The notes under the pieces are model-generated. The model worked only from the letters and a program-made list of their open reading frames with translations. It was not told the DNA's origin and did not search any database. This document shows, piece by piece, positions 1,260 through 14,757 of a DNA stretch of 39,914 nucleotides (positions are counted from its first letter, which is position 1; every line of letters begins with the position of its first letter). Origin of the DNA: Bacteroidota bacterium (GTDB lineage Bacteria; Bacteroidota; Bacteroidia; NS11-12g; UBA955); NCBI GenBank assembly GCA_947496065.1, contig CANMBF010000024.1, positions 1 to 39,914 of the forward strand, read 5' to 3'. The translations under genes were made by a program, and so were the position numbers.

Positions 1260-3770
1260 TTATTTTAATAACAATTTATGATTTTTGTTTATTTCAAACA
1301 TATTACAATATGAGTCATAATTATTTGCAGTGGTTTGAATCTGTTCACACGTAAAACTATTCTCAATTGTTTTACGAAAAATTAATATATCTTTTTCTTT
1401 AGGCGAAATTTCTTTAAATAAGTCTTTTAAAAATATTCGATATTCGCCTCTTGTTTCTCGTAATTTAAATTCTATTTTGAACTTATTATTAGTAGAAAGA
1501 TTTTGAATGGTAATTATCTGTGATTCGCCATGTTTAAGTACTACATGAAAAAAATCTCTTATTGCTTCAACACTGAAAGTAGGGGTCCTTTCTAGATCCT
1601 GATTAATTATTTTTTTTAGATAAAAATTCTCATTTACGTTTTCATTGTCCTCAATTCCAGTATTATTTTTTTTAAGTTCGAGTTGGTTGTACCCGAGCTT
1701 AGCGGTCTCATTATAACACGATAAAGCCCAATTCACTTGTTTTTCAGACAATTCCTTTCCTTTAGAGATATAGTAGGCTGCCACTTGAAACACGAATTTC
1801 CTGGAAGCTCCGTCAAGGACATCACACTCTTTTGCCCATTTTGCCATACCAAACCAAAAACCGGAGTCGCTAAGTGATTCTTCAAAAGACAAGCCAATTG
1901 AATTATCATTTGAGATAGTGTTGCTTTTAGAGCTTACACTTTTTATTGGTATCACATCAGTTTTAACTGCAGTTGTTATAATTAATTCGGGAATTTGTTT
2001 TGAAAAAACATGATTTATCTTCTTAACTTCTAACCAACATTCAGGTTTACGACACCACGTACCTATATTTATCGGACCAGCTGATTCTTCGATTATTTCC
2101 CATACTTTTTTAACTAATTGAGCTAAACTTCTAGATAATTCAAAAGATATACCCTGTAAATTCCATATATCGTCAAATTTTATTTCCCCATTACATATTA
2201 AAGACATTAATCCCATTGTATAATTTACAACATGATTTCTTTGCTGTTTAATCCCAGCTTCATTAACTAACAATGTCAATTTTCGAGCGAGTATTATTTT
2301 TGATATAGAATCAGTGTAGAATTTCTGATCTAAAGTGATTATATTGTTTTCTCTGTATTTTTTAAATTTATCATAATTTTTCTCTGCCCCAAGTGCTGAA
2401 TCATAAGGTCTTGGTTCAATCTTATTTTCGGAATTCGGAAAGCCCCAAGCAAAAAGTATTAACGCCAATTCAGTCTTTTTAATAACACGTAATTTTTTGT
2501 ATTCATTATGAAACTTAACTTCATTATTCGAATCTTTTCTACCCAAATTTAATCCTGTAGTAAAATAATCACTAGTTTTTCTCTCAAAATACCATTTTTC
2601 TCCATGCGTATTAGGTATACTAATTTCTCTTGAGTATTTTTCAAATTCACAATTAAAAAAGTCGTTAGCGTCAAGATCAGAAAACGTCACAGCACTTTGA
2701 GTATTGGCATATCGTGAAATATCATGAATGAAAGACTCCTGTTTTTCGTCATTTTGAATAACACTAAGCTTCATTTGCAAATAAACGTCCTCTAGTAATA
2801 TTAAATTGGCCCTATTTTTATTGCCAAAAAAATGAATCGTGGCGGTAGTTTGTCCTCCATTTACAATCTGAAGATTTTCTACTTTAGATATATACATCTT
2901 TCCATCTTCCTCATAAAAACTGACAGAGTCAGCAGTGGCAGAAATTCCATTATTGTATGCAAAAAACTTTTGCCTTTCATTTCCTCCTAGTGTATCAAGT
3001 AAACCCTTATTTTGTTTTCTAGTGGCGTTTAAAAACAACCTCACATTTCCCTGCAATAGATCAGTCTCATGTTCATCATAAATATCAAACAAGGCTCTTG
3101 CATTCATTACAACCAAGTATCCTTTGTATTCATCGTAAGCGTGTGGTAAACTAATACAAGGTAATTTGTACCCAAGTGATCTAAAATCAATATTTGGAGT
3201 TATGAAATCATGTGTTTTCGATTTCCAAAAATCATAAAAATCTATTAAGGAAATAACAACAGTTGAATAAATTAATTTATTGATTTTACCATTGCCGCTT
3301 AAATCTGACTCCGTATCGTATGCTTTGTTGGTGACAATAAAAAAGGTTACATTTTCAATTCTTAATGAAGATTCGAATATTTCGTCAACGACAGAATGTG
3401 TTGCTTCTTCTGATTCGTCTATAAGTCTTGCTATTGTATTATCAAAAATATTCTTAACAAAAGACTTTCCTTTTTCAATTAAAATTTCCACATCTTTATT
3501 AGTGATTACTTCAGTATTTTTTTTGTTTTTTGAAATATCACCAATAAGTACAGATAATTTCCCTTGACCTTCATCAATATAATAACCATCACATAAAATA
3601 AACTCCTGAGGTAATTCAATGTGTAAAATTTCAAAATCAGTTAGTCCTGATATTTGACATATTTCATCTTTCTGTTGGCTAATGAATAATGAACTGTCGT
3701 AAGGACTTTCTGGATTGGATCCAAGAAAAACATTGTCAATAAGTTTTGAATTAAAGTCTTCTAATTTCAC
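1260..3770 (-). CDS. AIPR family (abortive infection phage resistance) protein
   Basis: An 836-residue protein, last gene of the six-gene defence operon. The central part carries the AIPR hallmarks: 'NVR' at about 242-244, 'NNGISATA' at about 273-280 and 'QIVNGGQTTA' at about 301-310. Known family: AIPR (PF10592) proteins are linked to phage resistance and to restriction-like operons with Z1 and HATPase genes; their biochemistry is not established. The C-terminal 300 or so residues match nothing I recognise and may be an effector or partner-binding region. The start is a GTG whose bases overlap the stop of the DUF4420 gene (GTGA), which implies translational coupling. No signal peptide or membrane segment is seen, so it should be cytoplasmic. 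The gene is visibly AT-richer than the flanking core genes, in keeping with acquisition. Confidence 0.85.
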   Translation of the reverse strand: MKLEDFNSKLIDNVFLGSNPESPYDSSLFISQQKDEICQISGLTDFEILHIELPQEFILCDGYYIDEGQGKLSVLIGDISKNKKNTEVITNKDVEILIEKGKSFVKNIFDNTIARLIDESEEATHSVVDEIFESSLRIENVTFFIVTNKAYDTESDLSGNGKINKLIYSTVVISLIDFYDFWKSKTHDFITPNIDFRSLGYKLPCISLPHAYDEYKGYLVVMNARALFDIYDEHETDLLQGNVRLFLNATRKQNKGLLDTLGGNERQKFFAYNNGISATADSVSFYEEDGKMYISKVENLQIVNGGQTTATIHFFGNKNRANLILLEDVYLQMKLSVIQNDEKQESFIHDISRYANTQSAVTFSDLDANDFFNCEFEKYSREISIPNTHGEKWYFERKTSDYFTTGLNLGRKDSNNEVKFHNEYKKLRVIKKTELALILFAWGFPNSENKIEPRPYDSALGAEKNYDKFKKYRENNIITLDQKFYTDSISKIILARKLTLLVNEAGIKQQRNHVVNYTMGLMSLICNGEIKFDDIWNLQGISFELSRSLAQLVKKVWEIIEESAGPINIGTWCRKPECWLEVKKINHVFSKQIPELIITTAVKTDVIPIKSVSSKSNTISNDNSIGLSFEESLSDSGFWFGMAKWAKECDVLDGASRKFVFQVAAYYISKGKELSEKQVNWALSCYNETAKLGYNQLELKKNNTGIEDNENVNENFYLKKIINQDLERTPTFSVEAIRDFFHVVLKHGESQIITIQNLSTNNKFKIEFKLRETRGEYRIFLKDLFKEISPKEKDILIFRKTIENSFTCEQIQTTANNYDSYCNMFEINKNHKLLLK

Positions 3771-4777
3771 TTGAAGTATGGGGTTTTACATTGGTATTTT
3801 TGGCAGGCATCAATGTTGATGCTATATTTTATATCCATCAATGCGTTGCTATTGTTTAGTTTCCCGAGCTGTTTTAATCTAATTGAAGGAAAAGTGTCAT
3901 CTATCTCATAATACTCTTGACCTTTATTAATTATTGAATAAGATCTATTATACTCTTCTTCCTTTTCAAATCTATAACCAAGACTCATTATATTTCGCCT
4001 AAAAATATTTCTTGAATTCGGATCATTAGCTAGTTGTTTAGTTATGAAATCTATCAATTTGGGTAAATCTCCAACTTTTGATTCAGAACTAACCATGTTA
4101 TAAACCGTTAGATAAAGGTGTTTTAACTTGCCCTTCTCCAACTGTTTTTCATTACTTATTTTGACTTTTAAAGGATTATTTGAGGTGGTTGCTTTTATTT
4201 CAAAGCTAATGCTAGGTAGTTCAAAATCGTGTCGATTTTTCTGATAGCCTTTCCAAGCATTTATTGCAGGGGCGATGCCTAACTCTTGAAATAAAACTTC
4301 ATGCAAAAAATACATTTCTCCGAATAATCCAAGTTGATTTTGTGGGCCAAAAGAGTCCATTTCTTCTACAAAATAACTTTTCCAATCTTCAAATAATTTA
4401 ATTAGCACATCCTCAAATGTCTTAATATCGTTTATTCCAATTATTATTCTCGAAATTTCAGACATAAACAATTCAGAAATTGCTGTGTGAATTGCATACT
4501 TTTGCTCTATTATATATAGGTTTCCCTTTAATCCACTGTAGGTAACTTGCAAACTACACTTTACTCCTAGCACCTCAGGTAACTTCTTATTTGTTTTAAA
4601 TTTTGGTGGTAGTTCAATTATTACCGACCTTTTTAAATTAGTGGAATCGGAATATAGATAAACCTTAAATAGTGAATTTTTGTCAACTAATCCTGAAACT
4701 CCTTTTTTTAAAGAATTTGAAGTAATATTTAATTCCTTCCACTTTTCTTCATAATTAAATTCATTTTTTATTCTCAT
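3767..4777 (-). CDS. PD-(D/E)XK motif protein (DUF4420), predicted restriction nuclease
   Basis: A 336-residue protein. It matches the DUF4420 / PD-(D/E)XK family (PF14390): the conserved 'LGLFGEMYFLHEV' stretch at about 149-161 supplies the upstream Glu, then Asp184 ('RHDFEL') and 'FEIKAT' (Glu193, Lys195) give the metal-binding D...ExK core. This is the best candidate in the operon for the DNA-cutting subunit. Known: DUF4420 genes recur beside Z1 and AIPR genes in predicted restriction systems. It overlaps the next gene by 4 bases and follows the Z1 gene after only 5 bases, so the three are almost certainly co-translated and may form a complex (inference). The ATG start at 4777 fits the tight spacing. 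Confidence 0.87.
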   Translation of the reverse strand: MRIKNEFNYEEKWKELNITSNSLKKGVSGLVDKNSLFKVYLYSDSTNLKRSVIIELPPKFKTNKKLPEVLGVKCSLQVTYSGLKGNLYIIEQKYAIHTAISELFMSEISRIIIGINDIKTFEDVLIKLFEDWKSYFVEEMDSFGPQNQLGLFGEMYFLHEVLFQELGIAPAINAWKGYQKNRHDFELPSISFEIKATTSNNPLKVKISNEKQLEKGKLKHLYLTVYNMVSSESKVGDLPKLIDFITKQLANDPNSRNIFRRNIMSLGYRFEKEEEYNRSYSIINKGQEYYEIDDTFPSIRLKQLGKLNNSNALMDIKYSINIDACQKYQCKTPYFK

Positions 4778-4782
4778 TTTAG

Positions 4783-7700
4783 TTAGTTGTCAAAATATTC
4801 AGCTTCTGCGATTTCGTTCATTACATAATTTGCAGTAATTCCACTTGAAGTTGAGGGAGTAACCGTGGCAAAACCAATTAGGTAATCACCTTTTGCAGTA
4901 GAGTATCTTATATTCTTATTTTTGTCATTATTAAATCTAATTGGGTATATGATTAATAAACCATTTTCCTTATCTCGTTTTTCTAATCTCAGCCATCTGT
5001 TAAAACTTAAATATGTTTTATTTTCCGATTCTCGTGAGGTTTTATATGTTACCCATTCCTTATTAAGGTTCGATATTTCGGTCTCAGTGAAGTCATACTG
5101 TTGTTCTGTATTTCCTGTTATTACTCCAGTTGATATTTTGTCAACTCCCACAAGATCGTTTGTTGCACCCCTACCAGACGGATAGACATCCTTCCCGCCA
5201 ATTTTTACTAATTCTTCACGGCTACCAGATTGCTTGCCGAATAAAACTACAGTCCATTTTGTTAGTTCGCTATAAGTCAGATTGTTTGCATTGACTATAT
5301 ATTCACTTATTGCCTCGGTTTGCATTTTTGAGCTAGTAGGATGATTTTCGTAATTTTTAAGAAAATCTAATATTTTAATTGATGATACATTTTTCCAAAT
5401 AAAAACCCCTGGTCTTCCCTTTTCAAGAGAAGTATCACTTGGTCCAATACCTGAAATTAGATTTTCAACGCTATTAATATTCTTTTCAATTTTATCAGCT
5501 CGGTTCCAAAACACTACTGTTTCAGACATTTTACCTGAAAAATTAAGGGTAATTGGAGTTCCGGATCTCATTTTCATAGCATTTGTAATAATCATTGAAG
5601 GATGACTCTGAACTCTGAGTCCAAATTCGTCTGGTGATTTATGAGGTTCTTCAGCTACCATTTCTTCAAATAAACCTTTAAGTTCTTCAAAGGCAACTGC
5701 TATATGGCTATAGTTACGTAGCAATTCATGATTAGCGTATATTCTGCATGTGTCCACGAAACCATCCCTATAACCAAACCATCTACCCATCTGCATTAGG
5801 GTATCATATGCACTACTTAATCTTAGATAATAACTAACCATTAAACCTTCTAATGTTAAACCTCTAGATAATTTATCGCCTCCAACAGCTATAACTGAAA
5901 GTCCTTCTTTTTCATATTTATAATAGTCAAGCAAGTCTTTAGAACCACCACTTATTTGCCTTACGTTTGGTTTATTAGCTTCCCCGGTTAATTTTTTTAA
6001 TGCCGCATTCATTGATTTAAACACATCATCCCAACTATGATCAATTTTTGATAACTTATATTTCGCCCCATGGTAATATTCATCATTAATTACGGGATTT
6101 GATTGCATAAAATTTGCGGAAATTAAAAAATCATCGTTATAAATATTTTTTAACCAATCAATTGTTTTTGGATCTTTGTTTTTTATATGTTTAAACAATT
6201 TTTTACAATAAGATGAAATTACTTCTGCTAATATTTTTTGAACAGCAGTATACTTGGTAATATGAATAAGCATAGACATATGCTTTTTTTCATGGCCTCT
6301 TAAAACTCTAATACTGCAACCAATTATAAAAGATGCGATAGCATGTTTTAAGGAAATAGGCAAATCCACTCCCTGTTTAGTTAAGACGTCTTTAGGGCTA
6401 TGTGTTTTTTTATGTTTTCCAGGCATAAATCCTTCGCCTACCAATAATGGCTGTCCTTCCTTAATTATAATTTTTGCAAAGCTACCACTATCTGGCATAA
6501 GGTTATTCCAATGAATTATGTCAGAAATTCTTTCATTATATAATTTTTCAATTGAATTTCTACCTTTTAAGCTATCCTTACTTTGCCAATCATGATAAAT
6601 TTCAAGATTCTCATCTCTATATTTAAAAATATCTCTTGTAATTGGCAAACCTTTGTCATCTCGGTGCAACCCTCCAAAAACTTGAAGAGCACCAACATAA
6701 TTGGATGGCTGATTCATCATAACAATAAAATCTCTAGGAAACAAATCGTCACCAAGTCTATTTTCAGTTACGTTGTTCCGTATAAAAATATTAGCAAATG
6801 GAGTTGCAGTGTATCCAATATAGGTTTTAGAAGAAAATTTATTTAATAAAAGTCTAATCCCTTCGTTTATCGATGTCGGGTTATATTCCTCTAGAGGGTT
6901 GCCATCCTCATCCTCTGGAATTATTTTTGTATTTATGGACGCCTGATCAGCTTCATCATCTATAACAAGTAATGGAATTTTATGAAGACGTTCTATTCCT
7001 CTTTCATCCTGATTTATAAAGGGGGTACCTGTGTTGCTCTCAATTAAATTTTGTAAAAACTGATTTACATTTTCAAGTATTGATTTATTTTTTTTTATAA
7101 CCCAAACCCTTACATCATCATTTAGAAGATCAAACGTTAGCCGCCCCTTTCCGAAATCGCTATCAAAGCTTGTCATGGGTTTGGTGTCCGGTACCCAACC
7201 TTTTTTTGTTCCAATGCCAATATTACTTTGAACGCTATCCCTTGTAATTCGGCCTATAACACCCTCGTCAATTCTTTCTTGTGTTTGAGACCTGAGATTA
7301 TCATGCATACCTGCAAGAACAATTACATAACGATACCCTAGGTCAATGGCTTTATTAATTAATCCTGTATAATTTCCCGTTTTACCCGACTGAACATAAC
7401 CTACTACCAAACCTCTGATATCAAAATAATCTCCGTTTTCTAAAGCTCTTCTTGGGTCACCGATTAAACCAAGTATATCATCGGTCTTAGTATCAATGGC
7501 TTCAATAACTTCTTTCGGAAGTTCCTCTCTCTTTAAAGCCTTGTATCTTTCCCATCTTTTAAACTTACCTTCCCAATCTTCCTTTTTAAACCATTTAACA
7601 AAATCTTTTCTTGTTAAAATATTATTCTCTTCAACCTCCGTTATAAGCACTCTTTTCTCAAAATCTAATAGATAATCTTCTTTATTAAATTTCGACACAT

Positions 7701-7842
7701 CTATCTCGGATTCCTCCAAATCCGAAATAAACCAATCATAGGCGTTTTCAAGCGCTTCAGCATGTTCCTTACCCTTAGTTTTTCTAAAAACATAATACTT
7801 ATTAACTGCATTATTAAATGAATCTATTATTAACTGTTTCAT
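4783..7842 (-). CDS. SF2 helicase-like ATPase with Z1 domain
   Basis: A 1019-residue protein. Helicase motifs are intact: Walker A 'GYVQSGKTGN' (148-157), Walker B/DEAD 'IDDEAD' (294-299), 'TATP' (345-348), 'GGDKLSRGLTLEG' (654-666) and motif VI 'QMGRWFGYR' (684-692). The region between and after the motor halves is the Z1 domain (PF10593). Known: H.CglI of Corynebacterium glutamicum is a helicase-Z1 protein that works with a nuclease subunit in an ATP-dependent restriction enzyme, and Z1 genes recur in predicted MORC-type restriction systems. Inference: this is the motor that senses or moves on DNA and licenses cleavage by the DUF4420 protein encoded just downstream. ATG start at 7842, 13 bases after the ATPase gene. 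No truncation or broken motif is seen. Confidence 0.92.
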   Translation of the reverse strand: MKQLIIDSFNNAVNKYYVFRKTKGKEHAEALENAYDWFISDLEESEIDVSKFNKEDYLLDFEKRVLITEVEENNILTRKDFVKWFKKEDWEGKFKRWERYKALKREELPKEVIEAIDTKTDDILGLIGDPRRALENGDYFDIRGLVVGYVQSGKTGNYTGLINKAIDLGYRYVIVLAGMHDNLRSQTQERIDEGVIGRITRDSVQSNIGIGTKKGWVPDTKPMTSFDSDFGKGRLTFDLLNDDVRVWVIKKNKSILENVNQFLQNLIESNTGTPFINQDERGIERLHKIPLLVIDDEADQASINTKIIPEDEDGNPLEEYNPTSINEGIRLLLNKFSSKTYIGYTATPFANIFIRNNVTENRLGDDLFPRDFIVMMNQPSNYVGALQVFGGLHRDDKGLPITRDIFKYRDENLEIYHDWQSKDSLKGRNSIEKLYNERISDIIHWNNLMPDSGSFAKIIIKEGQPLLVGEGFMPGKHKKTHSPKDVLTKQGVDLPISLKHAIASFIIGCSIRVLRGHEKKHMSMLIHITKYTAVQKILAEVISSYCKKLFKHIKNKDPKTIDWLKNIYNDDFLISANFMQSNPVINDEYYHGAKYKLSKIDHSWDDVFKSMNAALKKLTGEANKPNVRQISGGSKDLLDYYKYEKEGLSVIAVGGDKLSRGLTLEGLMVSYYLRLSSAYDTLMQMGRWFGYRDGFVDTCRIYANHELLRNYSHIAVAFEELKGLFEEMVAEEPHKSPDEFGLRVQSHPSMIITNAMKMRSGTPITLNFSGKMSETVVFWNRADKIEKNINSVENLISGIGPSDTSLEKGRPGVFIWKNVSSIKILDFLKNYENHPTSSKMQTEAISEYIVNANNLTYSELTKWTVVLFGKQSGSREELVKIGGKDVYPSGRGATNDLVGVDKISTGVITGNTEQQYDFTETEISNLNKEWVTYKTSRESENKTYLSFNRWLRLEKRDKENGLLIIYPIRFNNDKNKNIRYSTAKGDYLIGFATVTPSTSSGITANYVMNEIAEAEYFDN

Positions 7843-7855
7843 AATTTAGTTTATT

Positions 7856-9298
7856 TTAATTTTTAAGATCGGAATCGTTTAAAAGGTTATTGATGTACTC
7901 TTCAGACTTTCCTTGGTCCAATAATTTTTTTATAAAATTAGCTTTTACTTTTTTTAATCTCTCTTTGTTATCCTCTATTTTATCACTAAGATCTGCCTTG
8001 TTCATTGCTCCATCTGAAATTATTTCAGTAATAGGTAAATTTATTTCAATATGATCAATAAGACCAATAAGTAATTTATTTAGACCAACAACGTCTTTTT
8101 TTTCTTCCATTTCTAAAATCTGTTCAATCAGTGGATGTTTTTTATTTATTTTATAAATCTTTCCCTTAACACTGTTTCTTGCTTCCCAAATCCATGCATA
8201 AGAATCTGTTGAACCGATTTTGCGTTTAGTCCGATGAAGATATCTGTTTTTTGAACTTTCATATGCATTTTTAACAATTTTTTCTACATCTGAATATATA
8301 GAGTTTGGAATAATTGCCTTTGATTTTTTTACATCAATACCCCATACATCATCCCACTTGTTTGGTATATCTACCATTATTCTGCAAAGTTTTGTTTGTT
8401 CATGGGATTTCATGTCGTCCCCCATGTTTAGCCATCCCCCGCAGACAATTAATCTGTTCGTTCGGTATAAATAGAATCCCTGATTAAGAGTGAAACCATT
8501 TTCAAGACTCGCTTTTTTAATATCTGTTTTAGACATTTTACTCTCGTGAGGTAGAATATAAGCTTTTACAACAACAGAGTTATTATAATATTTGCTTTCG
8601 CCTTTTATTGTAATTTTACTGAATGCAAACGGATCAATTGGCTTTAATTGATTCCCCTGATAAAAAAGATCTGTTTTTTCTACCAAATAGCCCTGAATAT
8701 ATCTGTGAAAAATTAATGAAAGATGATCACCAACTGCATCAATTTTTTTATAAAATAAATCTGAATCTTCAGCTTTTTCATTCAATAATTTATCTAAAAT
8801 TTCAATGACAATAATAGTTCCCGATTCATGGAGTATCTTTGGTTTCAATATATCAATTGTTGACTCAAAAGGTTGCGTTTTTATTGCCCATCTTTTAGCG
8901 ATATTATTAACGAAGTCCGTATCCCATACACCTATTTCTTCTTTCTTGTTAATTATAGTTTTTACACTTAAACGTTTTCCCTGTGACAGAGAAGCAGTTT
9001 TTAAGCCTAGACCGAATCTTCCGAGGTCATCCGAATCCCTGATTGGTTTTATTTTTTTTCCAAATCTAAGTGCGTCATTTAAACGCTCTCTATCCATACC
9101 AGTTCCGTTATCTTCAATTCTAATGTATGAATTGGCTTCGTCGAATACAATATCAACATGAATTTGAGTTGATTTTGCAGCTAAACTGTTGTCAATGAGA
9201 TCAGCAATGGCATTTTCCACAGAATATCCCATATCACGGATGGAGTCAAACATCCCGAGATCGGGATCTAAAAGAACGACATTATTTATTTCCCCCAT
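7856..9298 (-). CDS. GHKL/HSP90-like ATPase (MORC/MutL-type) of restriction system
   Basis: A 480-residue protein with an N-terminal GHKL ATPase fold: N-box 'ENAIADLIDNS' (28-38), G1 'DNGTGM' (63-68) and G2 'GRFGLGLKTAS' (93-103). It lacks a histidine-kinase phosphoacceptor or sensor domain, and the lysine/glutamate-rich C-terminus (about 400-480) looks helical. Known: Iyer, Abhiman and Aravind (2008, as recalled) described MutL/MORC-like ATPases of this kind inside restriction-modification operons with Z1, helicase and nuclease genes. Expected role: an ATP-gated clamp that dimerises on DNA and couples recognition to the helicase/nuclease. Spaced 23 bases after the methylase-like gene and 13 bases before the Z1 gene. 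ATG start at 9298. Confidence 0.88.
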   Translation of the reverse strand: MGEINNVVLLDPDLGMFDSIRDMGYSVENAIADLIDNSLAAKSTQIHVDIVFDEANSYIRIEDNGTGMDRERLNDALRFGKKIKPIRDSDDLGRFGLGLKTASLSQGKRLSVKTIINKKEEIGVWDTDFVNNIAKRWAIKTQPFESTIDILKPKILHESGTIIVIEILDKLLNEKAEDSDLFYKKIDAVGDHLSLIFHRYIQGYLVEKTDLFYQGNQLKPIDPFAFSKITIKGESKYYNNSVVVKAYILPHESKMSKTDIKKASLENGFTLNQGFYLYRTNRLIVCGGWLNMGDDMKSHEQTKLCRIMVDIPNKWDDVWGIDVKKSKAIIPNSIYSDVEKIVKNAYESSKNRYLHRTKRKIGSTDSYAWIWEARNSVKGKIYKINKKHPLIEQILEMEEKKDVVGLNKLLIGLIDHIEINLPITEIISDGAMNKADLSDKIEDNKERLKKVKANFIKKLLDQGKSEEYINNLLNDSDLKN

Positions 9299-9321: not shown

Positions 9322-10047
9322 TTAATCAATTGTCCATTGCTTTGCCATTGCCCTAGCCATTCCTTCAAATGTTTTACTTCTCATTGTTCTTCGCTCTTCA
9401 GGGGATTTGGCCTTTACAAAAGCATCTGAGTACCATTTTGGCTGACTTTTCCCACTTTTAAAATATATTCTTTCACCTTCATCCACAATTTCTGTTGGAA
9501 CTAATTTTGGTAAGTTTTTTAACCATAGGCAAGTTGTTTTACGAGCCCTATCCCCAAACATAAAAGGCTGCACAATCTGATCAGGTTTGCGAAACCTTGT
9601 ACTAATAATGCCAATTGGATTTTCTATAACTATTTTTTCAATAGGGGCATTGGCTAACGCAATAAAAAATTTAACTGCTTCCTCTCTATGCTCTGCTCTA
9701 TACGGATAATCGGGATGTCGACCCCTTTTAGCAATTGGCAATAGTTTGTCCTTTGGGTCATAGTACCACTTAGCACCACTTACTGCTAAATAAGTACATG
9801 GAGGATGTGCTATCATTATATCCCAGTTGTTTTCCAATTTTACTTTCTCTCCGTTCTGCAATATACCACCTTTGTTTTCAATTACTTCAAAAACATCCAT
9901 ATTAAAATGAAATTCGGGATGACCTCCACTGCATTTTAATAAATCACAACTATAGGCGTTATGCCCTAGAAGCCTTAATTCCCGAGTAACTGCTTGACTT
10001 TCCTCGCAAGCTACAAGTATGTTTAGTTTTTTATTTTTTACGCTCAT
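9322..10047 (-). CDS. Compact C5-methyltransferase-like protein (HPPC type, no target recognition domain)
   Basis: A 241-residue protein of a family often met in phages and annotated as DNA cytosine methylase-like. The SAM-binding start is altered: 'LVACEESQ' (11-18) instead of FxGxGG, then an acidic 'CDL' (34-36). Motif IV is present as 'HPPC' (81-84), with Cys84 in the place of the catalytic cysteine, and 'IENP' (141-144) replaces the usual ENV. 'TTCLWLKNLPKLVPT' (171-185) is a typical family tail. It has no room for a target recognition domain, so either it modifies DNA without strict sequence choice, needs a partner, or is not a DNA methylase at all (inference). It overlaps the true methyltransferase gene by 17 bases and begins with nearly the same eight residues (MSxKNKKL). 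Confidence 0.8.
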   Translation of the reverse strand: MSVKNKKLNILVACEESQAVTRELRLLGHNAYSCDLLKCSGGHPEFHFNMDVFEVIENKGGILQNGEKVKLENNWDIMIAHPPCTYLAVSGAKWYYDPKDKLLPIAKRGRHPDYPYRAEHREEAVKFFIALANAPIEKIVIENPIGIISTRFRKPDQIVQPFMFGDRARKTTCLWLKNLPKLVPTEIVDEGERIYFKSGKSQPKWYSDAFVKAKSPEERRTMRSKTFEGMARAMAKQWTID

Positions 10048-11296
10048 TTTTTGAAATTATTTTTGATATTGACTCCGCAATATTTCTTGCCATTTCTGGC
10101 GGTACAGCATTTCCAATCATTTTAAAACAAAATCCTTGGCCTCCAAGAAATTCAAAATCATGTGGAAATGATTGCAGTAGGGCAGCCTCTTTAACTGTAA
10201 TTGATCTACTTTGCTCAATATCGGGATGAATAAACATTAAGCCATCCTTATACAGGTGGGCAACGATAGTTGGTGAAGGCTTATCCCATTCTAAATTTCT
10301 ATATTTAGCATGGTTCGAACTTTTCCCCATTAATTGATTATAAAATCCAATTTTTTCTTCCATTGTTACTCGATTTAAATTATTTTTAAGCCAATGTTTA
10401 AATGTTGAAACATCCCTATCATTATGAAATCGAGGTTCGTGATGCTTTACTTTTTTATTTCCAATAAGTGAATGTGAAATATTTTTCCCATTCAGTTTAG
10501 ATTGACTTTCTAAAGGCTGGTATTTTGGTAGGTGTGAGATGGCATCCTTTACATTAACAGGTTTGATTTTTTTTGTTAATTGATTAATTTCACTGTAAAG
10601 TACTTCTAATTCTAATTTTGAATTCTTATCTACACCAATTATAATAACTCTATTTCTCTTTTGAGGTACCCCTAAGTCGGATGCTGCGTAAATTGATTTC
10701 TTCAATAAATCGGGAGTTCTTATTTCATAACCGATGGCTTGAAAAGCTTCGTAGATTCTTTCTGTTACTAATTTTCCACCAGGTTCGGCACTTAATAAGC
10801 CCGGGACATTTTCAAAAACAAAAATATCAGGTTTAAATTCATCTACAACTTTTACAAAACTTTCAAAAAGATAGTTTCTGTAATCATCCTTCATTGAATT
10901 TTTATCTTGGGCTCTGCCTGCAATTGAATATGCTTGACATGGCGGTCCACCAATTATCAAATTTACTTTTTGCTTGCCAATTAAACCTCTTAAGCCCTTT
11001 TTAACAATTTCATTATGATTTGTAGAAGAATATAATTTTGTTGACTCTTCACTCCAATTTCCATTAATTAATTCTTCAGTCTTTTGAATATCAAAATGTA
11101 CAACTCTTTTGAATGCATCATCTTCATCATGATTCCATTTAGTATTTAATCTATGACGCAGGGTATTTACCATTGGAATTTCCCATTCTACATGCGCTAA
11201 TGCATCGTACTGGTTTGTTTGAAGAAAACCTTCACTTAGTCCACCACATCCTGCAAATAAATCTATAAAAGTTAATTTTTTATTTTTTTCACTCAT
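10031..11296 (-). CDS. DNA (cytosine-5-)-methyltransferase of the restriction-modification island
   Basis: A 421-residue classical C5 DNA methyltransferase, first gene of the operon. Motif I 'DLFAGCGG' (12-19) binds SAM; 'GGPPCQ' holds the catalytic Cys120; 'ENV' is at 162-164; 'QKRNRVIIIG' (212-221) is motif VIII; a target recognition region follows (about 230-370), and 'GNAVPPEMA' near residue 400 is motif X. It would methylate a specific cytosine in the host's own DNA, protecting it from the operon's nuclease. The recognition sequence cannot be read from the gene. ATG at 11296 is followed at once by the conserved motif-I region, so no longer start is needed. Upstream, at about 92 bases, lies a perfect palindrome overlapping a promoter-like box. 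Intact. Confidence 0.95.
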   Translation of the reverse strand: MSEKNKKLTFIDLFAGCGGLSEGFLQTNQYDALAHVEWEIPMVNTLRHRLNTKWNHDEDDAFKRVVHFDIQKTEELINGNWSEESTKLYSSTNHNEIVKKGLRGLIGKQKVNLIIGGPPCQAYSIAGRAQDKNSMKDDYRNYLFESFVKVVDEFKPDIFVFENVPGLLSAEPGGKLVTERIYEAFQAIGYEIRTPDLLKKSIYAASDLGVPQKRNRVIIIGVDKNSKLELEVLYSEINQLTKKIKPVNVKDAISHLPKYQPLESQSKLNGKNISHSLIGNKKVKHHEPRFHNDRDVSTFKHWLKNNLNRVTMEEKIGFYNQLMGKSSNHAKYRNLEWDKPSPTIVAHLYKDGLMFIHPDIEQSRSITVKEAALLQSFPHDFEFLGGQGFCFKMIGNAVPPEMARNIAESISKIISKNERKK

Positions 11297-13033: not shown

Positions 13034-13882
13034 TTATTTCAGATCTAGTTTTTTGAAATGTCGTTGAATTTCTCTTTCTACTTGGTCGAAGTTGGGTAAA
13101 TCTTTTATTTGATCGCGCATGGAGCTTTGCCAACGGCCTCTGTATTGCGGAATTCTTTCTGCTAATTTCTTTTGAAAATCCGCATGCTTTAATCCTTTGC
13201 TTTCACATTTTATTTTAAATTCATTCAGATAAAATTCTAACGCCATTTGATGTTGTTCCAACAGATACCAAATATCATAGAAATCGCGCGCTTGCATCCT
13301 TTGCATTACACTTCGCATCTTTTCAACTAAAACCTCTTCTAGGCTATAACAGAGCATTTGATAGGCTGCTAGGTCGGAATAGTTAATCAAAGCATTTTTT
13401 AATAAAGGTTCAAAAACCAATTGTTCATTTTTCGAAATATCGATTTTCACATTTTTATTGTTTCCTTGTCCACCCAATGGGCCAACATAACTGATATAAA
13501 AGTTAATGCCACCATCTTGGTGTTCGTTATTATCGATAATTGCAAGCGGAATATTCGCTTCTTCTCTGATCCATTCAAATGTTTCATTAAACCACTCAAA
13601 GATTTGGGCATTTGTGATTTGATTTTCTGAAATTTCTTTTATGGTAAATGCATCTGATTTATCTATGCCAATGAGCGTAAAGTCTAAGTCTTCAGAAAAT
13701 CGATAATCATCAAAATAGATTTTCTTTAAAACCGTTCCGCCTTTAAATACGAGTGTTTTGGAAAGGTGATCATGTTTTGCTATGCCTTTTAATAGCCATG
13801 AAAGAATATAATCCTTTTCAATTTGTTGATCACGCACGCCAAGTGCATATGCTTTTTGTTGAAGTTCTCCAGGTGTTATCAT
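13034..13882 (-). CDS. abiEii: AbiEii/AbiGii-type nucleotidyltransferase toxin
   Basis: A 282-residue protein of the AbiEii toxin family (PF08843, DNA polymerase beta-like nucleotidyltransferase fold). Visible motifs are 'EKDY' (22-25), 'KGGTVLKK' (47-54), the nucleotide-binding GG[T/S]...K loop, and 'SEDLDF' (63-68), the metal-binding DxD pair; the helical C-terminal half contains 'MQARDFYDIWYLL'. Known: AbiE is a type IV toxin-antitoxin system giving abortive phage infection; related toxins (MenT) transfer nucleotides to tRNA acceptor ends. The gene overlaps the antitoxin gene by 4 bases (ATGA), the classic AbiE arrangement with the antitoxin first. Catalytic residues are intact. ATG start at 13882. 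Confidence 0.9.
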   Translation of the reverse strand: MITPGELQQKAYALGVRDQQIEKDYILSWLLKGIAKHDHLSKTLVFKGGTVLKKIYFDDYRFSEDLDFTLIGIDKSDAFTIKEISENQITNAQIFEWFNETFEWIREEANIPLAIIDNNEHQDGGINFYISYVGPLGGQGNNKNVKIDISKNEQLVFEPLLKNALINYSDLAAYQMLCYSLEEVLVEKMRSVMQRMQARDFYDIWYLLEQHQMALEFYLNEFKIKCESKGLKHADFQKKLAERIPQYRGRWQSSMRDQIKDLPNFDQVEREIQRHFKKLDLK

Positions 13883-14700
13883 GAATAAATAGCAGATTGA
13901 ATGGTTTCAGTTTCTAAATTTTGCATTATACTCCAGCGGCTAATGTACTTGCCAAGTTTTGGTAATTCTGTGTCGAGTAATATATACGATGCTGATTTAA
14001 GTTTCTTCAAATCTTCGATAATAGGGGTCTTAATATTCAGAATTTCCAACAGAAATCCGAGTCTTTTGATGACCGCTTGTGAATCGAATAGAATTGCATA
14101 ATCCAAAAGTTTTTTGAATTTTATTTTGTCTTTGGATGTATATATAGCTTTTGCTATTTCAACAATTCCACCCGCATATTCAGGTTTAAATAAGCAATCA
14201 ATAATGGTTTTTTCTAAGTCAGAACAAATAACCTTGGTGTAGCTATCAATCCATATTTTTTGAGTTCCAAAAAAATGTTTCTCGTTGTGATAAATAAATT
14301 GAAATTGTACATCTTTAATTTGAATTTCAGATGGCTTCACTTGCTTTGATACAACAATTTGTTCCTTTAACGAGGGTTGTGTAATGAGGTTGTGCAATTG
14401 CAAAGCTGAGTAATAACCAACATAATGTTGTGCCTCGTTTACTAAGTATTTTGTAATAAGGTGCCAATCGGGCATAAATGTTTCGGCATCTACATGGTGA
14501 GGAATAATATAATAGACCCCATTTTTTAAGCGCATTAACAAACCGCGTTTTGTCATGTCACTCAGCAATTCACGGAGTGTGCCTTCCTTTGCTTTAGGCA
14601 CTGCCTGTGTTGCATCATTATAGTCAAAACAATTTTTATTTTGTCCATAAAAAAAAGAAAGCAGTTGGTTGGATTTAGTTGAAATATTTTTACTATACAT
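13879..14700 (-). CDS. abiEi: AbiEi-family antitoxin (winged-helix)
   Basis: A 273-residue protein from ATG 14700 ('MYSKNISTKS...'). The longer frame from 14757 is rejected because a promoter -7 box and an operator-like palindrome lie inside it. The N-terminal winged helix (about 1-80: 'LRELLSDMTKRGLLMRLKNGVYYII') is typical of AbiEi_4/AbiEi antitoxins; the region '...VGYYSALQLHNL...' and the following antitoxin domain ('TKVICSDLEKTIIDCL') match the family. Known role: binds its own promoter to repress the operon and neutralises the AbiEii toxin. Its stop overlaps the toxin start. Predicted cytoplasmic. Confidence 0.88.
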   Translation of the reverse strand: MYSKNISTKSNQLLSFFYGQNKNCFDYNDATQAVPKAKEGTLRELLSDMTKRGLLMRLKNGVYYIIPHHVDAETFMPDWHLITKYLVNEAQHYVGYYSALQLHNLITQPSLKEQIVVSKQVKPSEIQIKDVQFQFIYHNEKHFFGTQKIWIDSYTKVICSDLEKTIIDCLFKPEYAGGIVEIAKAIYTSKDKIKFKKLLDYAILFDSQAVIKRLGFLLEILNIKTPIIEDLKKLKSASYILLDTELPKLGKYISRWSIMQNLETETIQSAIYS

Positions 14701-14709
14701 AGTATTAAT

Positions 14710-14757
14710 ATCAGGATTAGCCTGATAACAAAGATACAAAAAATAATTTAAATTCAA
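14710..14757 (-). promoter_or_regulatory. AbiE operon promoter and operator
   Basis: On the minus strand: TTG at 14755-14757, 18 bases, then TATCTTTG at 14729-14736 (consensus TAnnTTTG), followed at once by the perfect inverted repeat ATCAGG-ATTAG-CCTGAT (14710-14726, plus-strand reading), then ATG at 14700. A palindrome overlapping the transcription start is what an autorepressing AbiEi antitoxin would need. It also fixes the antitoxin start at 14700. Confidence 0.65.

Follow-up and report, generated by a model that had tools for sequence, protein, structure and literature searches.

The stretch of DNA analyzed here (hereafter the window; 39,914 nt, contig CANMBF010000024.1 of a Bacteroidota bacterium) carries on its minus strand a series of six genes in the order full-length C5 methyltransferase (MTase), compact methylase-like protein, MORC/GHKL ATPase, Z1 ATPase, DUF4420 protein and AIPR protein. 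The full-length C5 cytosine MTase (421 aa, 10031..11296) matches PF00145 with an E-value of 3.8e-57 and was aligned with its counterparts from selected loci (alignment A4, 25 rows). The last four genes are placed with MzaB-E by both NCBIfam and PADLOC, from whose models the MZA name for this layout is taken: a MzaB-like MORC/GHKL ATPase (7856..9298; NF041932, E 9.9e-85), a MzaC-like Z1-domain helicase-like ATPase (4783..7842; PF10593; NF041933, E 1.6e-186), a MzaD-like DUF4420 PD-(D/E)XK protein (3767..4777; PF14390; NF041934, E 1.6e-24) and a MzaE-like AIPR protein with a C-terminal B3 domain (1260..3770; PF10592; NF041935, E 1.8e-72), all on the minus strand. Since all four matches score below the curated NCBIfam cut-offs (284.7 against 850, 621.8 against 1500, 86.7 against 420 and 244.7 against 1050 bits, respectively), we refer to this effector as MZA-like. 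The set of MTase, MORC, Z1, DUF4420 and AIPR genes, which we take to be MZA-defining, is present in full in the window. An AbiEii toxin gene (PF08843, E 1.7e-34) accompanied by an AbiEi antitoxin match just below cut-off (13034-14757, minus strand) lies close to the operon, so that the region looks like a small defence island.

The compact gene (9322..10047, minus strand) is an intact open reading frame with an ATG start that encodes 241 aa and overlaps the MTase reading frame (10031..11296, minus strand) by 17 nt. Its product matches the phrog_757 "DNA methyltransferase" profile of PHROG over profile positions 11-219 of 247 (E 6.8e-63), and no Pfam or NCBIfam family was found for it at limits of E 1 and 0.1. 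The canonical C5 MTase features (FxGxG, a target recognition domain [TRD] and a PF00145 match) are all missing. The first-pass annotation of this DNA had described the protein as lacking a TRD, and its length (241 aa versus 327 for M.HhaI), without any TRD-sized insertion, bears this out. The same holds for the catalytic motifs that it reported as kept. HPPC occupies aa 81-84, of which motif IV (PPC, aa 82-84, 9796..9804, minus strand) contains the catalytic cysteine and is invariant in alignment A2 (72 rows from selected loci, with near copies L191, L196, L197 and L206 left out), and motif VI (ENP, aa 142-144) lies at 9616..9624 on the same strand. Both motifs are near-universal in the family, with PPC in 164 and ENP in all of 169 relatives (a 170th locus, L041, had no usable reading frame and was dropped), and in four of the five relatives without PPC the cysteine is still found in the same motif. 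The SAM loop, ACEES (aa 13-17, 9997..10011, minus strand), had on the other hand been read as altered, and proves to be the normal motif I of the phrog_757 family: xCExS is found in 166 of the 169 relatives and exact ACEES in 140, with C14, E15 and S17 invariant in alignment A2. When the two proteins of the window are aligned, the compact PPC falls on the PPC of the full MTase and the compact ENP on its ENV. Comparison with the nearest relatives (L171-L174) yields pN values of 0.10-0.12 and pS values of 0.71-0.83, a signal by which the compact gene looks to be under purifying selection.

An AlphaFold2 model of the compact protein (pLDDT 93.3, pTM 0.89) predicts the catalytic-domain fold of C5 DNA methyltransferases. 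All 50 Foldseek matches listed are DNMT3 or DNMT1 entries, and VIA-align Z scores reach 13.2 for DNMT3A, 12.7 for M.HhaI and 11.8 for M.HaeIII, with 201 residues superposed on M.HhaI at 3.8 Å. A sequence search of the PDB with the compact protein returned no relative at a meaningful E-value, despite these clear fold matches. The fold of a SAM-dependent C5 MTase that the first-pass annotation had proposed to look for is hence the one predicted, with the catalytic Cys and Glu kept.

The compact family is common in phages, where 621 of 50,697 records match it, only one of them at more than 60% identity. Among 395 genomes of the window's phylum, 18 contain MzaC-profile matches and 74 contain phrog_757 matches at E<=1e-3; strong matches (E<1e-18) occur in eight of those 74, the window included, and 21 of the 22 weaker matches fetched as loci match the window's full MTase instead. 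Within these 395 genomes, no locus except that of the window combines a strong phrog_757 match with a MzaC match, and the compact gene is absent from all 17 other loci with MzaC-profile matches (some of these matches are weak, and L065 and L073 rest on weak ones), which places it outside the usual MORC/Z1 layout. Among the control genomes, that of Corynebacterium glutamicum also contains a MzaC-profile match. A search of 117 related genomes for proteins closely related to the Z1 ATPase of the window found none in the 16 congeneric genomes listed and only distant relatives elsewhere. In view of the 17 MzaC loci we first considered the compact gene to be a chance or passenger gene, a reading that was dropped once a chromosomal clade had been found.

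That clade escaped an earlier scan of genome contigs with the single protein, which returned no relative, and was then found by scanning 84,980 species genomes with the family alignment. Among the best 80 of the 423 relatives obtained, a sharp identity gap separates 37 loci at 60-84% from the rest, at 54% or below (a further relative search kept the best 80 of at least 595). Clade hosts include Bacteroidota, Bacillota, Planctomycetota, Spirochaetota and Pseudomonadota, many of them metagenome bins, and all 37 loci carry the three motifs in the window's form. The phylogenetic tree places viral members next to a single group that holds every clade row, the window's among them, except L203 (37 of 38 rows); support for this group is moderate (81).

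The compact gene lies directly downstream of a window-like C5 MTase in 30 of the 37 clade loci, and the 29 full-length partner MTases are 53-77% identical to that of the window. No window-like MTase was detected in the DNA covered for the remaining 43 of the best 80 loci (54% identity or below), and only two of 80 viral loci showed a weak, partial MTase-like match, some 3 kb away. The gap between the two genes in the 29 loci ranges from -94 to +22 nt, with a 4-nt overlap in 15. The distance matrices of the two proteins, computed for these 29 loci and the window, are correlated (Mantel r 0.71, against a best value of 0.27 in 5,000 permutations). Near copies (L190/L191, L195-L197) were included in the Mantel test and in the counts over 37 clade loci and 30 pair loci reported here (30/37 for pairing, 21/30 for the B3 domain); L172, with a contig-cut MTase of 102 aa, was counted as a pair and left out of the Mantel test. 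The embedding of a methylase-like protein in the operon, noted in the first-pass annotation, thus stands as regards its pairing with the MTase, which recurs, but this pairing does not characterize MORC/Z1 operons in themselves. The suggested count of the family beside Z1/AIPR operons gave none in the 17 other MzaC loci, and within the clade Z1 proteins are found in only seven of 37 loci and MORC proteins in four. The compact gene goes with the full MTase, whatever the effector.

Some clade members stand apart from this pattern. The genomes of clade loci L179, L181, L199 and L204 yielded no window-like C5 MTase at E<=1e-3, and those of L205 and L207 contain only distant ones, so that the division of strands with that partner proposed below would not be universal. 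In L179 and L181 the compact gene is convergent to a member of an unannotated family of 253-274 aa proteins, C10 (L179:10731-11492, minus strand; L181:10712-11536, minus strand), a candidate restriction nuclease that is also found, in two pieces, beside the MTase pair of L174 (L174:10752-11607, plus strand). The L179 copy and the longer L174 piece had no Pfam match, and the L179 and L181 copies no PADLOC match. The position of the compact gene beside C10 in L179 and L181 suggests that the compact enzyme can act alone. L199 and L204-L207, from Bacteroidaceae, are clade members without the MTase that adjoin small conserved genes (104-147 aa). In Carboxylicivirga and relatives (L216-L220, L222 and L223), the compact MTase is fused behind another domain within a conserved neighbourhood; in L217 this domain has an NPPF motif, appears adenine-MTase-like by eye and is without a Pfam match.

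The chromosomal clade is further distinguished by an extended loop after motif IV (aa 95-117, 9697..9765, minus strand), whose conserved residues, together with an extra segment at aa 59-73, are missing from most other relatives. Clade members that have the full MTase and those that lack it conserve the loop residues to the same degree, which makes a DNA-contact feature likelier than a partner interface. The window protein departs from the consensus at three near-invariant loop positions, aa 97, 109 and 110, on which the other 27 of 28 pair rows agree; these differences may reflect drift or a change of specificity.

Effector genes were grouped into clusters by BLAST and the cluster representatives run against Pfam. 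Candidate restriction genes are found near all 30 pairs, the least certain being that of L174 (family C10). A McrB-like AAA cluster is present near 22 of the 30, accompanied by a RE_LlaJI cluster in 10 of those 22; Z1 proteins occur near seven pairs, MORC in four and McrC-like proteins in at least two (L182, L188). Other effector candidates are an HNH protein in L172, C10 in L174 and an NgoFVII protein in L189. A single MTase pair may be accompanied by two kinds of effector, McrB/McrC-like plus Z1/DUF4420 in L182 and LlaJI-like plus MORC/Z1/AIPR in L187, each of these loci with two B3 copies. In L177 (L177:12528-14303), L194 and L202 the position behind the AAA gene where a nuclease would be expected is occupied by a 591-aa protein, whose L177 copy had no Pfam or PADLOC match. 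Between the window and L176, dS amounts to 0.59-0.85 for the MORC, Z1 and DUF4420 genes as against 1.75 for the MTase and 2.14 for the compact gene, a contrast suggestive of separate histories for the two halves of the operon, as shuffling would predict. Vsr repairs deaminated 5mC, and its presence in seven of the 30 pair loci, Pfam-confirmed in each, points to 5mC there.

The B3 DNA-binding domain of the window (AIPR aa 715-833; 1272..1628, minus strand) was recognized by profile and structure matches. The N-termini of McrB-like proteins in L171 and L177 share 50% identity with the last 119 residues of the AIPR protein (717-835), which are also 31% identical, over 107 residues, to the N-terminus of an L193 HNH nuclease. 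A profile search over a single pool of open reading frames, iterated with the domain of the window as its sole seed, retrieved 23 B3 copies in 21 loci, all of them pair loci (21/30). The family was found in none of 143 control loci (5,484 open reading frames from 80 viral, 43 lower-identity, 17 MzaC-match and three lactic-acid-bacteria plasmid loci) and in none of the seven clade loci without the MTase. It was not found at E<1e-3 in the remaining nine pair loci, among which L194 and L201 look divergent and L176 is contig-cut. In 11 whole genomes the domain occurs at these cassettes only, with 12 copies in 10 genomes and none in that of L174. The structure closest to the domain model (pLDDT 91.3) is the N-terminal domain of Helicobacter pylori LlaJI.R1 (6c5d; Z 16.9, rmsd 1.6 Å over 116 residues), followed by plant B3 domains (up to Z 12.9) and BfiI (12.0); by sequence, the PDB contained no relative at a meaningful E-value. 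Seven AIPR proteins encoded in other MZA-like loci gave no B3 match at their C-termini in hhalign comparisons of single sequences, a weak test. The AIPR B3 domain is a candidate for reading the target site.

We also searched in the reciprocal direction, from the full MTase, in 790 genomes of three families (296, 299 and 195) centred on the genomes of clade loci. Each of the five close MTases (58-62% identical) is immediately followed by the compact gene, and the stretch fetched around it contains no further full-length MTase; four of these loci had already been found by the compact-gene scan, and L255 is new. The next MTase group (43-49%), hereafter the sister group, comprises nine loci, all without the compact gene and with a second full-length C5 MTase immediately upstream of the first; plasmid p275D, found separately, shows the same arrangement. 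Two of these second MTases, run against Pfam, match PF00145 at E 1.5e-71 and 1.5e-70. Another 18 loci, with MTases at 34-40% identity, had no compact gene in the fetched stretch. This alternation indicates that the compact protein holds the place of a second full MTase, and the upstream position of the latter, versus the downstream position of the compact gene, means that neither replaced the other in situ. Proteins of NgoFVII type and others resembling LlaJI R1 are among the sister-group effectors. No member of the B3 family was found in this group, where the site may therefore differ; one 67-aa reading frame of L253 matches the family at E 0.005.

Systems with two C5 MTases are already known. 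Two MTases are stated to be usually needed for non-palindromic sites (PMC12898733), and LlaJI is described as modifying its asymmetric site, GACGC/GCGTC, with two 5mC MTases (PMC1459862). LlaJI, from plasmid pNP40 of Lactococcus lactis, resembles the cassette in having two 5mC MTases, an asymmetric site and restriction genes that follow; H. pylori LlaJI.R1 has in its structure a B3-type reader like that on the window's AIPR, and the pair loci with RE_LlaJI-cluster (10) and McrB-like cluster (22) genes extend the likeness. The LlaJI MTases are both full-length (465 and 379 aa), however, whereas the second one of the window is a TRD-less protein of 241 aa, and the window has MORC, Z1, DUF4420 and AIPR genes, with the B3 domain on AIPR, and neither the McrB-like R1 nor the RE_LlaJI R2 of LlaJI. 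Whether the window has a side-by-side C5 MTase pair like that of LlaJI depends on whether its compact protein is accepted as a C5 MTase. The R1 protein encoded on pNP40 gave no match to the B3 profile. Homology of the compact protein to LlaJI M1 or M2 was considered and rejected, both being full-length and without a BLAST match to it at E<=1e-3; its only BLAST match in that set was to 27 residues of the second MTase of L253 (E 4e-4).

In CglI and NgoAVII, as described, a B3 reader of asymmetric GCCGC is coupled to a Z1 ATPase and steers a nuclease (PMC4267653). These systems share with the window a C5 MTase, a B3 reader and a Z1-domain helicase-like ATPase, but have a single MTase (GCSGC) and a B3 domain fused to a PLD nuclease and, consisting of three genes only, lack MORC, DUF4420, AIPR and the compact MTase (PMC4267653). 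Given that they manage with one MTase, a B3 reader does not by itself demand two. MZA itself shares with the window the order of MTase, MORC, Z1, DUF4420 and AIPR, apart from the inserted gene, and the MzaB-E matches; the compact MTase and the B3 domain on AIPR are additions, neither of them seen in the 17 other MzaC-match loci. The phage protein of phrog_757 belongs to the same family over nearly its full length (E 6.8e-63), but viral loci differ from those of the clade in having no B3 domain (0/80) and a weak partial MTase match in only two of 80. M.BatI, a prophage C5 MTase with a short TRD for which sequence-specific 5mC formation is reported as demonstrated (PMC8936443), is, going by its description, similarly compact and has an unusual motif I, though of the form CxGxxG, and is an orphan enzyme (PMC8936443). 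Methylases, Vsr and a VP1/RAV-type DNA-binding domain are placed in MORC operons by Iyer et al., 2008 (PMC2292703), whose MORC-operon text makes no mention of a second compact methylase. None of the accounts that we found in the open-licence PMC literature, as far as it was accessible, describes a cassette of this kind whose second C5 MTase lacks a TRD.

Taking the LlaJI and CglI/NgoAVII precedents together with the present data, we propose second-strand marking and MZA-like restriction, and consider it reasonably probable (about 0.6) that the compact protein serves as the second of two modification methyltransferases in a restriction-modification cassette. A member of a phage-common family would here have become the compact cytosine-C5 DNA methyltransferase of a chromosomal cassette, and would probably be made from the same transcript as the full C5 MTase, given that the two genes overlap. 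The two MTases would share the task of marking target sites in host DNA, most likely by dividing the strands of a short asymmetric site between them, with the compact enzyme acting on the second strand (or second cytosine) of the site read by B3. The B3 domain on the AIPR C-terminus would read the same site in incoming DNA and, where it is unmarked, direct the MORC/Z1/DUF4420/AIPR machinery to restrict that DNA. The full and compact MTases, often with the B3 reader, would be inherited together and coupled to different effectors. Of the three roles guessed at in the first-pass annotation, a base-modification enzyme fits best, and a regulator of the MTase or a sensor of phage nucleotides sits poorly: both are made less likely by the near-universal catalytic motifs and by the relatives and clade members without such an MTase.

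The absence of a TRD, the tight gene coupling and correlated divergence with the full MTase, and the DNMT3 identity of the best structural neighbours, many of them solved as DNMT3A/3B-3L or 3A-3B complexes, would also be expected of an obligate subunit, a compact protein that alone would lack useful DNA specificity and whose active site would be placed on a second cytosine by the TRD of the full MTase within a heterodimer. We regard this as unlikely, as most viral and other relatives have no adjoining MTase (0/43, and weak, partial matches in 2/80 viral loci), the genomes of four clade members have no detected window-like MTase, and the clade loop, kept with or without the MTase, is not obviously a partner interface. 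Pairing and correlated divergence would likewise suit a regulatory partner that stimulates or positions the full MTase and whose own catalysis is irrelevant, in the manner of DNMT3L. DNMT3L has lost its catalytic residues, however, while PPC and ENP are kept in all 37 clade loci and almost family-wide, the compact gene appears to be under purifying selection, and the sister group has a second full MTase in its place, all of which makes such a role very improbable.

A modification other than 5mC, or action on free nucleotides or single-stranded DNA, could be suspected from a motif I unlike the FxGxG of the full MTase, a motif VI of ENP versus ENV and the lack of a TRD; yet the protein has the catalytic Cys and Glu and the predicted fold of a C5 DNA MTase, it alternates with a second C5 DNA MTase, and Vsr occurs in seven of 30 loci (although the full MTase alone could explain this), so that we consider this quite improbable. 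A passenger reading, in which the compact gene was picked up from a phage and contributes nothing to the system, would agree with the abundance of the family in phages (621/50,697) and its absence from the 17 other MzaC-match loci, but it is hardly credible when the same pairing recurs in 30 of 37 clade loci from several phyla, together with correlated divergence, the B3 association and a reciprocal search in which five of five close MTases were followed by the compact gene.

A broader reading extends the two-enzyme interpretation to a portable "self-marking and reading" cassette, composed of a full MTase, a TRD-less phage-type MTase that would mark the second strand without the usual kind of recognition domain, and a B3 reader that moves between protein contexts (McrB-like AAA proteins, HNH proteins, stand-alone copies, AIPR), by which unrelated killing machines, including MZA-like ones, would become site-specific restriction systems; we put it forward tentatively, at somewhat less than even odds. 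If it is true, a reader domain would steer MORC/Z1/AIPR machinery of this kind in its function as restriction effector, and DNA recognition by the compact enzyme would depend on the extended loop behind its catalytic motif or on its partner. How a TRD-less C5 MTase finds its site presents a clean structural question. A common phage family that PHROGs names only "DNA methyltransferase" gains a testable job, and MZA-like, LlaJI-like and CglI-like systems would be tied together as one modular theme with interchangeable effectors, in which a B3 domain on AIPR, by reading the marks that two C5 MTases leave, could let an MZA-like system tell self from non-self.
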